From: Candidatus Binatia bacterium
Lineage (GTDB): Bacteria > Eisenbacteria > RBG-16-71-46 > SZUA-252
Length of the DNA stretch: 64,000 bases
Direction of reading: 5' to 3'
Assembly: GCA_035631035.1 (NCBI GenBank)
Contig: DASQJL010000062.1
Span: forward strand, 62,001-126,000
Positions 19,719 to 22,468 of this stretch are shown piece by piece. Made by a program: the position numbers and the translations under genes. Position 1 is the first letter of the stretch, and each line of letters starts with the position of its first letter. Below the pieces are notes generated by a model, which did not search any database, had not been told where the DNA came from, and was given only the letters and a program-made list of their open reading frames with translations.

Positions 19719-20481
19719 GCGCCCAGAGGAGGTCCTCGGTCGCCACGTTCCCCGCAGCCCCGGGGGCGAAGGGGCATCCGCCCACCCCGCCGGCCGAGGC
19801 GTCGAAGATCGTGATGCCGCGGTCGTAGGCCGCGAGCGCGTTCGCCACGGCGGTGCCGTAGGTGTCGTGGAAGTGCATCGCGAGCGCGTCCTGGGGTGCT
19901 GTGTCGAGGAGCGCGTCGAGCAGGGCGTGCACCTCGGCGGGCACCGCTTTTCCGATCGTGTCGCCGATCGAGATCTCCTCCACGCCCAGGTCGAGGAGCT
20001 GCCTCACGACCGGCACCACGGCCTTGGGCTCGATCCTTCCTTCGTAGGGACACCAGAACGCCGTGGAGACGTAGCCGCGCACCGGGAGCTTCGCCTCCTT
20101 GGCGCGCAGGACGACCGGCCGGAAGCGCTCGATCGACTCGGCGATGGTGGCGTTGATGTTCTTCCGGTTGAAGGTCTCCGAGGCGGCGGTGAACACCGCG
20201 ATCTTCCCCACTCCCGCCGCGAGCGCGCGGTCCAGCCCGCGCTCGTTGGGCACGAGCGCTGCGTAGAGGATCCCCTCGCGGCGCCGGATACCCCGCAGCA
20301 CCGCCTCCGCATCCTGCAGCTGAGGGACCCGGTCGGGAGCGACGAACGCCGTGGCCTCGATCTCATCGTAGCCCGCCTCCGAGAGCGCGTCGATGAAGGC
20401 GATCTTCGACTCGGTCGGAATGGGGCGGCTCTCGTTCTGCAGTCCGTCGCGCGGTCCGACCTCCACGATCCGGACGTTCAC
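19582..20481 (-). CDS. liuE: Hydroxymethylglutaryl-CoA lyase
   Basis: A 299-residue TIM-barrel lyase cleaving HMG-CoA to acetyl-CoA and acetoacetate, the last step of leucine degradation. Signatures: IVEVGPRDGLQNE at the N-terminus (catalytic R and D), then EISIGDTIGKAVP, MHFHDTYGTAVAN (metal-binding His pair) and the cysteine loop GGVGGCPFAPGAAGNVATED. The GTG start overlaps the stop of the biotinyl-carrier gene (GTGA) and has GGGAGGGG upstream. It is the last gene of the five-gene operon. Its last 137 bp overlap the convergent saccharopine-dehydrogenase-like gene. Confidence 0.95.
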   Translation of the reverse strand: MNVRIVEVGPRDGLQNESRPIPTESKIAFIDALSEAGYDEIEATAFVAPDRVPQLQDAEAVLRGIRRREGILYAALVPNERGLDRALAAGVGKIAVFTAASETFNRKNINATIAESIERFRPVVLRAKEAKLPVRGYVSTAFWCPYEGRIEPKAVVPVVRQLLDLGVEEISIGDTIGKAVPAEVHALLDALLDTAPQDALAMHFHDTYGTAVANALAAYDRGITIFDASAGGVGGCPFAPGAAGNVATEDLLWALTRSGASVSLDPAKLSAASDVLASALGRPLRSRVREATRGSSPGR

Positions 20482-21002
20482 GGCCCCTCCCTGTCCCCGC
20501 CGGCGACCGGCGCTGCGGGAGCGATCCGCGCGAGCAGCTGCCCCAGCTCGACCCGGTCGCCCGGGGCGCACGCCACGTCGCGCACGACGCCCGACGCGGG
20601 CGCCGACACCTTGAACTCCATCTTCATCGCCTCGATGGTGAGCAGGAGGTCTCCCTCCCGCACTGTCGCCCCGGCGCGCGCCTCCACGGCGGCCACGCGG
20701 CCGGTCATCGGCGCGAGCACCTCACCCGAGTCGTCCGCGTCCACGCGCTCGCCGGCGTGGCGATGCAACGTCTCGAAACGGTAGAGCCTCCCCTCCAGAG
20801 CGACCCAGATCCCGCGCGCGTCGCGCGCCGTGGCGGCGCGAAGGGTGCGACCGCCGATGGCGAGGTCGATCCACGCTCCCTCGCGCGCGATCACGGCCTC
20901 CACGCGGCGCTCCCCGGTCTCGAGCACCGCGTGGTCCCCCTTCCGCGAGATGCGGGCCTCCACGGGGAGCCCGTTCCAGCGGAGCGCCACGGCGCGGCTC
21001 AC
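20478..21002 (-). CDS. Acyl-CoA carboxylase alpha chain, C-terminal part (BT-like domain plus biotinyl carrier)
   Basis: A 174-residue protein carrying biotin for the carboxylase. The biotinyl site is K in EAMKMEFK at about residue 133, within a standard lipoyl/biotinyl fold (LAPMTGRVAAVEARAGATVREGDLLLTIEAMKMEF in parts). The N-terminal half (VALRWNGLPVEARI onward) resembles the BT linker domain of methylcrotonyl- or propionyl-CoA carboxylase alpha chains, not AccB. These are normally the C-terminal part of one polypeptide of about 660 residues. Here a GTG start overlaps the biotin carboxylase stop (GTGA). Lengths 489 + 174 add up to the fused form. Confidence 0.88.
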   Translation of the reverse strand: MSRAVALRWNGLPVEARISRKGDHAVLETGERRVEAVIAREGAWIDLAIGGRTLRAATARDARGIWVALEGRLYRFETLHRHAGERVDADDSGEVLAPMTGRVAAVEARAGATVREGDLLLTIEAMKMEFKVSAPASGVVRDVACAPGDRVELGQLLARIAPAAPVAGGDREGP

Positions 21003-22468
21003 GCGCGCCCCCAGGAGCCGAGGAGGCGCCACGGCGACCAGCGGTCGGCGTCGTCCCGCTCGCCGGGGCCCGCCGACCGCGGGGGCGCGGACAGCGCGAT
21101 CGAGGCGGCGAGGACCGCCTCGTCGGGCGGCGCTTCGGGGCCGGGCCAGCGGCGCGACTCGATCGTGCGGGTGAAGGTCCGGCCCGTGCGGAACGCCTCG
21201 TCCTCGAGCAGATCGAGCAGGAACCCCTGGTTGGTCACGAGGCCGAGGAGGGCCGTGTGGCGCAGCGCCGCGATCAGGCGCGTCCGGGCCTCCTCGCGCG
21301 TCGCCCCGTGGGCGATCACCTTGGCGAGGAGCGAATCGTAGTGCGCATGAATCGTCTGCCCCTCGGCGATTCCGGCATCCACGCGGACCCCCGGCCCCGT
21401 GCCCCACGACAGGAGGAGAATCCTTCCGGTCTGCGGCACGAAGCCGTGGTAGGGATCCTCCGCGTTCAGCCGCGCCTCGATGGCGAATCCCTCCGGCCGG
21501 CCCGGATGCGGAAGCCCGCCGCCCGCGGCGATCTCGACCTGCGCGCGGACCAGGTCCAGCCCGAAGCGCATCTCGGTGACCGGATGCTCCACCTGGAGTC
21601 GCGTGTTCACCTCGAGGAAGTAGAACGCGCCGTCGGGACCGAGCAGGAACTCCACCGTGCCGGCGCCGGCGTACGCGGCGTCCTGGGCCAGGTGGACCGC
21701 GGCCTCCTCCATCGCGGCGCGCCGCTTCGCGTCCACCGCGGGAGAGGGGGATTCCTCGATCACCTTCTGGTAGCGGCGCTGGAGACTGCATTCGCGCTCG
21801 CCCAGCGCGATCGCGTCCTTGCCGTCGCCCAGGATCTGGATCTCGACGTGGCGCGCGGGCTCGACCAGCTTCTCCACGAAGAGCCGGTCGTCCCCGAACG
21901 CGGCCGCCGCCTCGCGCCGCGCGCTCTCGAACGCCGCGTCCAGGTCTCCGGCCGAATCCACGCGGCGCATGCCGCGCCCGCCGCCTCCGCCGGCCGCCTT
22001 GAGCAGCACCGGGTAGCCGATGCGGTCCGCTTCCGCGCGCGCGCCCGCCGCGTTCTCGATCCCCTCCACCCCGGGCACCACCGGCACGCCGCATCGCGCG
22101 GCGGAGCGGCGCGACGATACCTTGTCGCCGAGGCGCTCCATGCTCTCCGGGGAGGGCCCGATGAAGACGACGCCGGCGTCGCGGCAGGCGCGGGCGAACG
22201 GCGCGCTCTGCGAGAGAAATCCGTAGCCGGGGTGGATGGCGTCGGCGCCGGTCGAGCGCGCGGCCTCGAGGAGGGCTGTGGCGTTCAGATAGGAATCGGC
22301 CGGAGACGCCGGCCCGAGGCGCACCGACTCGTCCCCCGCCTCGGCGTGGGGCGCCGCGCGGTCGGCGTCGGAGTAGACCGTGACGGAGGGGATCTCCATC
22401 GCGCGGAGGGTGCGGCAGACGCGGAGCGCGATCTCGCCGCGGTTGGCGATCAGGACCTTACGGAACAC
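20999..22468 (-). CDS. liuD: Acyl-CoA carboxylase alpha chain, biotin carboxylase part (methylcrotonyl-CoA carboxylase-like)
   Basis: A 489-residue ATP-grasp biotin carboxylase. Visible motifs: FRKVLIANRGEIALRV at the start, the glycine-rich ATP loop KAAGGGGGRGMRRV near 160, and EVNTRLQVEHPVTEM near 290. It carboxylates the biotin on the partner protein using ATP and bicarbonate. The gene stops at 20999, just where fused alpha chains continue into the BT/biotinyl region. The stop follows a five-G run (TGGGGG); one additional G there would join the two frames. Start is GTG 22468, 48 bp after the enoyl-CoA hydratase. liuD is used by position and context. Confidence 0.9.
   Translation of the reverse strand: MFRKVLIANRGEIALRVCRTLRAMEIPSVTVYSDADRAAPHAEAGDESVRLGPASPADSYLNATALLEAARSTGADAIHPGYGFLSQSAPFARACRDAGVVFIGPSPESMERLGDKVSSRRSAARCGVPVVPGVEGIENAAGARAEADRIGYPVLLKAAGGGGGRGMRRVDSAGDLDAAFESARREAAAAFGDDRLFVEKLVEPARHVEIQILGDGKDAIALGERECSLQRRYQKVIEESPSPAVDAKRRAAMEEAAVHLAQDAAYAGAGTVEFLLGPDGAFYFLEVNTRLQVEHPVTEMRFGLDLVRAQVEIAAGGGLPHPGRPEGFAIEARLNAEDPYHGFVPQTGRILLLSWGTGPGVRVDAGIAEGQTIHAHYDSLLAKVIAHGATREEARTRLIAALRHTALLGLVTNQGFLLDLLEDEAFRTGRTFTRTIESRRWPGPEAPPDEAVLAASIALSAPPRSAGPGERDDADRWSPWRLLGSWGRA

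Follow-up and report, generated by a model that had tools for sequence, protein, structure and literature searches.

Is the alpha part of a predicted 3-methylcrotonyl-CoA carboxylase (MCC) really encoded by two genes in the operon described here, and if so, how are the domains of the enzyme distributed over the two products? The operon lies in a stretch of 64,000 nucleotides, hereafter called the window, which belongs to a genome assembled in 135 contigs. It contains a gene for a biotin carboxylase (BC), followed directly by a gene for a short biotinyl protein. The initial annotation considered three explanations for this arrangement: a real evolutionary split in which the BT domain stays with the biotin, a −1 frameshift site, and a one-base assembly error. 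We propose that two real, translationally coupled genes very probably encode the MCC alpha part in this leucine-breakdown operon, and that the BT domain would be assembled from both chains.

The operon and its assignment to MCC

The operon comprises, in this order, genes for MCC beta, an enoyl-CoA hydratase, BC, the BT-BCCP protein and HMG-CoA lyase. Its genes and the features discussed below are as follows.

23331..24938, minus strand: first operon gene, for the carboxyltransferase MCC beta (535 aa); best PDB match human MCC beta; Pfam Carboxyl_trans
22517..23329, minus strand: enoyl-CoA hydratase-type gene; Pfam ECH_1, operon order
20999..22468, minus strand: BC gene of the predicted MCC, 489 aa; GTG start at 22468, TGA stop at 21001-20999; tail of about 50 aa past the BC domain
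21089..21124, minus strand: BC residues 449-460, predicted tail helix, putative equivalent of the central BT helix; AlphaFold2, alignment with fused MCC alpha, Pfam BT_MCC_alpha positions 1-40
21002..21088, minus strand: BC residues 461-489, 'hook' segment with SPW and GxWG, up to the stop; conservation of W480
21008..21012, minus strand: GGGGG run, 6-10 nt 5' of the second start codon, possible Shine-Dalgarno-like site; anti-Shine-Dalgarno duplex, suggestive only
20999..21002, minus strand: GTGA in which the BC stop and the BT-BCCP start overlap, seen in the sequence; NTGA in relatives
20478..21002, minus strand: gene for BT beta-barrel and BCCP, 174 aa; GTG start at 21002-21000, stop at 20480-20478
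20769..20999, minus strand: eight predicted beta-strands of the BT barrel, BT-BCCP residues 2-78; AlphaFold2, Pfam BT_MCC_alpha positions 41-115
20514..20729, minus strand: BCCP domain, residues ~92-163; Pfam Biotin_lipoyl, invariant M126-K127-M128
19582..20481, minus strand: HMG-CoA lyase; Pfam HMGL-like; its start shares a GTGA with the stop of BT-BCCP

Judged by its sequence, the beta subunit clearly belongs to the methylcrotonyl type, since its PDB matches reached 766 bits with human MCC beta and 730 bits with Pseudomonas aeruginosa MCC beta, compared to 472 bits with GCC beta and at most 264 bits with PCC beta. The BC protein matches the Pfam families BC_N, CPSase_L_D2 and BC_C, and residues K116, K157, H207, K235, E286, N288, R290, Q292, V293 and E294 are invariant among the 68 sequences compared; their catalytic roles are presumably those assigned to the corresponding residues of E. 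coli BC. The BT-BCCP protein matches Biotin_lipoyl (E=6e-17) and, in part, BT_MCC_alpha, and its biotin lysine is K127 within the motif EAMKM (codon 20624-20622), with M126-K127-M128 invariant in the 74 sequences compared. The ATP-grasp BC residues, the biotinyl (A/V)MKM site and an MCC-type beta subunit expected of MCC (EC 6.4.1.4) are thus all encoded in the operon, and the BT domain is found only when both chains are read together. The enoyl-CoA hydratase-type gene likely encodes methylglutaconyl-CoA hydratase, as judged by its context, and the gene order matches that of the fused MCC operons of Azospirillum and Marinobacter. The operon context suggests that the gene products would have MCC activity and carboxylate 3-methylcrotonyl-CoA.

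The stop of the BT-BCCP gene overlaps the start of the HMG-CoA lyase gene in a second GTGA (20478-20481, minus strand), and the coordinates of most same-family loci agree with such an overlap, so stop-start overlaps seem to be the norm in this operon. When the region 19582-24938 was compared with the loci L173-L178, BT-BCCP was found to diverge much faster within the family (48-53% identity) than MCC beta (81-88%), BC (67-74%) and HMG-CoA lyase (71-78%). Elsewhere in the window, positions 13336-15552 of the plus strand encode a protein of 738 aa that contains two M43 (pappalysin-like) peptidase halves, very similar to each other, and ends in a Por_Secre_tail secretion-system sorting tail.

The junction in related genomes

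The sequence confirms the lengths of 489 and 174 aa, the GTGA overlap, the SPWRLLGSWG context and the adjoining G-run, all of which had been described in the initial annotation. The alpha part is not encoded as the canonical single BC-BT-BCCP polypeptide, as an in-frame stop codon (21001-20999), which is kept in seven relatives, ends the BC reading frame. The break is common to all same-family genomes that possess the locus (7/7), and the operon order is kept in the six relatives that could be read over longer stretches; the seventh, L006, is a short contig and was left out of this comparison. The junctions of the relatives read GTGA, TTGA or ATGA followed by Ser-Arg codons, and the BT product begins with MSR, VSR or LSR right at the NTGA overlap. 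In G006 (L005/L175), the BC stop lies earlier and the matching MSRR start (ATG-Ser-Arg) is found 36 nt past it, without an overlap.

These junctions bear directly on the idea that the gene is truly fused and that the TGGGGG run lacks one G owing to an assembly or sequencing error. The five-G run does adjoin the break. Upstream of the overlap, the BT frame stays open for a long way, which carries little information because the DNA is GC-rich. However, seven independently assembled relatives, with identities of 67-74% in BC and 48-53% in BT, have this break with the relative frame unchanged, and in them the stop, the start codon and the start sequence are retained though the flanking bases vary. 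Moreover, two of the six relatives tested have no run of five or more Gs at the junction, the stop-start overlap is missing in one, and many other bacterial groups have split pairs whose tails are built in the same way. The recurrence of both the break and the operon rules out an assembly error for all practical purposes: the comparison with related genomes that had been suggested as a check produced no fused frame, and the two ORFs with an NTGA junction recur in seven same-family genomes, as expected of a real split into two genes.

Programmed −1 frameshifting, which would yield the 489-aa protein together with a fused product of about 660 aa and make the short BT-BCCP protein a by-product, is highly improbable as well. 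It would fit the relative frame, which is −1 in most relatives, and the nearby G-run; yet a canonical slippery heptamer (X-XXY-YYZ) was not found near the stop in any of the seven junctions, and only two occur in the last 30 codons, about 70 nt upstream. The five-G run is not conserved, the BC tails vary in the length of their ends, a conserved MSR at the start codon opens the BT protein, and in L005/L175 the BT start lies beyond the BC stop. In addition, the BC tail bears the mark of purifying selection right to its stop, because sequence differences over the last 20 BC codons amount to 0.20/0.19/0.43 at codon positions 1/2/3 in the BC frame. For these nucleotides in the BT frame, the values are 0.44/0.30/0.37, without such a pattern, and the BT frame 5' of the BT start does not appear to be selected in this way. 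The proposed −1 site is therefore not supported.

Two coupled genes remain the preferred reading, and the BT-BCCP gene may be translated from its own start in a manner coupled to BC translation. The NTGA overlap taken alone would also fit occasional read-through. The duplex of the GGGGG run with the anti-Shine-Dalgarno sequence has an energy of −8.4 kcal/mol, a strength reached by 8% of nearby windows, and the strengths in the seven related genomes were matched by 0-23% of control windows; the 16S end of the genome used here, found by pattern, is GGATCACCTCCTTT. It is thus suggestive only that the G-run serves as a possible ribosome-binding site for the BT-BCCP gene.

Position of the break relative to the BT domain

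The BT domain of GCC, MCC and PCC consists of a helix, a loop named 'hook' and an eight-stranded barrel; in the hook, a mostly conserved tryptophan lies buried within the beta subunit (PMC4673880). The BC protein encoded in the window can be aligned with P. aeruginosa MCC alpha up to residue 487, across SPW and GSWG, and split tails align with fused alpha chains to GW(R/G), immediately before the first barrel strand. W480 of the hook is conserved in at least 90% of the 68 BC sequences. AlphaFold2 predictions were made for single chains, with BC and BT-BCCP apart. For the BC protein alone, they show a helix at residues 449-460 followed by a disordered tail, the isolated hook having a pLDDT below 50. 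For the 174-aa protein, exactly eight strands are predicted in residues 2-78 (block pLDDT 89-97), followed by a floppy linker and the BCCP domain. Foldseek matches of this model span the BT-BCCP part of MCC, PCC and ACC; most overall TM-scores are low, which probably comes from hinging of the two domains.

The Pfam profile BT_MCC_alpha, which has a length of 118 positions and a cut-off of 31 bits, was used on separate and joined chains. Biotin chains alone score 18-24 bits (23.9 for that of the window) and stay below the cut-off. With their own BC tail placed in front, four out of four pairs reach 32-41 bits over nearly the whole profile, and the joined pair of the window scores 33 bits and covers positions 1-115. 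When the tail was shuffled, or replaced by a segment from another part of BC, the scores were 23-25 bits. As the cut-off is passed only with the real BC tail, the two products appear to hold one BT domain jointly. Alignments, predicted structures and profile matches together indicate that the break is inside the BT domain, with the helix and the SPW..W hook on the BC chain and the complete barrel on the biotin chain. The statement that the BT domain stays with the biotin thus holds for the beta-barrel; the helix and the hook are on the BC chain.

In the proposed enzyme, the BC protein would carboxylate biotin, and its C-terminal tail would bring the BT helix as well as the hook contacting MCC beta. 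All eight strands of the BT barrel, as well as the swinging biotin domain, would come from the 174-aa protein. The BC helix would sit inside the barrel of the 174-aa protein, and the two-chain BT domain would thereby replace the tethering that is accomplished by a peptide bond in fused MCC alpha. We infer this physical assembly in trans from the features described above, and a precedent exists in two-subunit pyruvate carboxylase (PMC5059739).

Comparison with known carboxylases

Heteromeric acetyl-CoA carboxylase also has separate genes for BC (AccC) and the biotin carrier (AccB). AccB is not known to contain a BT barrel, and the carboxyltransferase of this enzyme is AccA/AccD rather than MCC beta. 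AccC ends soon after the BC domain and lacks the helix/SPW tail; the AccC-type protein L060, for instance, ends 14 aa past the domain. The gene pair of the window is of a different kind, as its BC carries a tail of about 50 aa with the predicted helix and SPW and its biotin chain a predicted complete barrel.

Single-chain MCC alpha, as found in P. aeruginosa MCC (3U9S/3U9T), human MCC and geranyl-CoA carboxylase (PMC4673880), has the BC domain, BT helix, Trp hook, eight-stranded barrel and BCCP with an AMKM site in common with the window, as well as an MCC-type beta subunit and the operon order. The difference is that the chain encoded in the window terminates behind the hook and a new one begins with the first barrel strand, which results in proteins of 489 and 174 aa. 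In the two-subunit pyruvate carboxylase of Methylobacillus flagellatus, the C-terminal helix of the BC subunit lies inside a barrel formed by other chains (PMC5059739). For the window, a helix on the BC tail and a barrel on the other chain are predicted, each chain having been modelled by itself. However, the barrel of pyruvate carboxylase is built from two CT-BCCP subunits (alpha1 beta2), its CT is of the pyruvate type and it has no hook (PMC5059739), whereas in the window all eight strands come from one chain, which is joined to BCCP alone, and the neighbouring CT is of the acyl-CoA type. BC, biotin carrier and CT are located on separate subunits in the three-subunit acetyl/propionyl-CoA carboxylase of Sulfolobales (PMC3199775), as they are in the window; that enzyme, however, is archaeal, acts on acetyl and propionyl substrates, and its BC does not lie near MCC in the published tree (PMC3199775).

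A search of the literature outside subscription journals for acyl-CoA carboxylases whose BT domain is split gave only an evolutionary study from 2011 (PMC3199775). No description of a two-gene MCC alpha was found in the same literature, and a search on leucine breakdown in Eisenbacteria found nothing. Separate genes for BC and a biotin carrier are common; what is less expected is a break positioned such that one chain retains an intact predicted barrel and the other carries the helix and hook.

Distribution and age of the two-gene state

A single-protein scan of genome contigs identified 13 relatives. For wider sampling, a profile was run over 385 genomes and 80 loci were fetched, which were picked by similarity to the BT protein of the window and are hence a biased sample. 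Among the 79 loci outside the phylum, picked for a good BT match, 59 are split, 11 are fused and nine have no BC just upstream. The W motif is present in the last 35 residues of 54 of these 59 split BC tails, whose median length is 58 aa. Within the same class, 22 of 26 loci are split and one is fused. This sole fused, MCC-like alpha gene in the class sample, L010/L045 (G037:C25), belongs to another family, is the only BT_MCC_alpha match above the cut-off and was possibly acquired by transfer. The genome that contains the window harbours a second split BC/BT-BCCP pair (L002/L184, G000:C81), whose BC is 52% identical, as well as a third gene for BC (L185, G000:C112). In L163 (G264:C3:186300-189200), the BT region is distributed over two ORFs, unlike in the other sampled loci, due to either real decay or a sequence error.

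It could be assumed that a fused MCC alpha gene underwent fission within this lineage, since the operon order equals that of the fused Azospirillum and Marinobacter operons and the BC sequence is MCC-like. A BC tree of 115 rows, in which the split and fused labels require five changes, likewise places the split clade among fused rows, with an unsettled branching order. In a focused BC tree of 46 rows, however, the window family clusters with G204 and the Bipolaricaulota sequence L033 (support 99/95). The fused MCC-like rows are united in a single, moderately supported clade (84/82) that excludes the window family; the latter falls among split lineages. Because the split is found in at least two phyla, it cannot be recent; a fission long ago would be compatible with this distribution. 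Fission within this lineage is therefore unlikely overall. The initial view of a split stands in that the two genes are real; the fission of a fused ancestor is doubtful, as the BC tree puts these genes in an old two-gene clade of several phyla outside the fused MCC clade. Within the limits of a biased sample, the two-gene state looks retained rather than the product of a recent fission, and it may be older than the fusion.

According to the survey of 2011, bacterial enzymes of this type consist of BC-BCCP plus CT, and the fusion was placed before their diversification (PMC3199775), a scenario which the present sample of split and fused loci does not easily fit. The chances appear about even that assembly of the BT domain in trans is the usual and earlier design among the acyl-CoA carboxylases of many bacterial phyla, the single-chain alpha subunits known from crystal structures having arisen later by gene fusion. 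If true, such an older design would depart from the published BC-BCCP fusion before diversification (PMC3199775).

Implications

Gene pairs of this kind match the model 'acetyl-CoA carboxylase biotin carboxylase subunit' and generic biotin-carrier models, so that, in phyla that have been little studied, MCC and its related enzymes can be overlooked or given a wrong name; an SPW tail together with an eight-stranded barrel provides a rule for their recognition. For enzymology, the proposed arrangement predicts a natural split-domain complementation that would tether BC, biotin and carboxyltransferase, and assigns a role to the approximately 50 residues of the BC tail. It also bears on the question of whether fusion is the ancestral or the derived state of the alpha chain.
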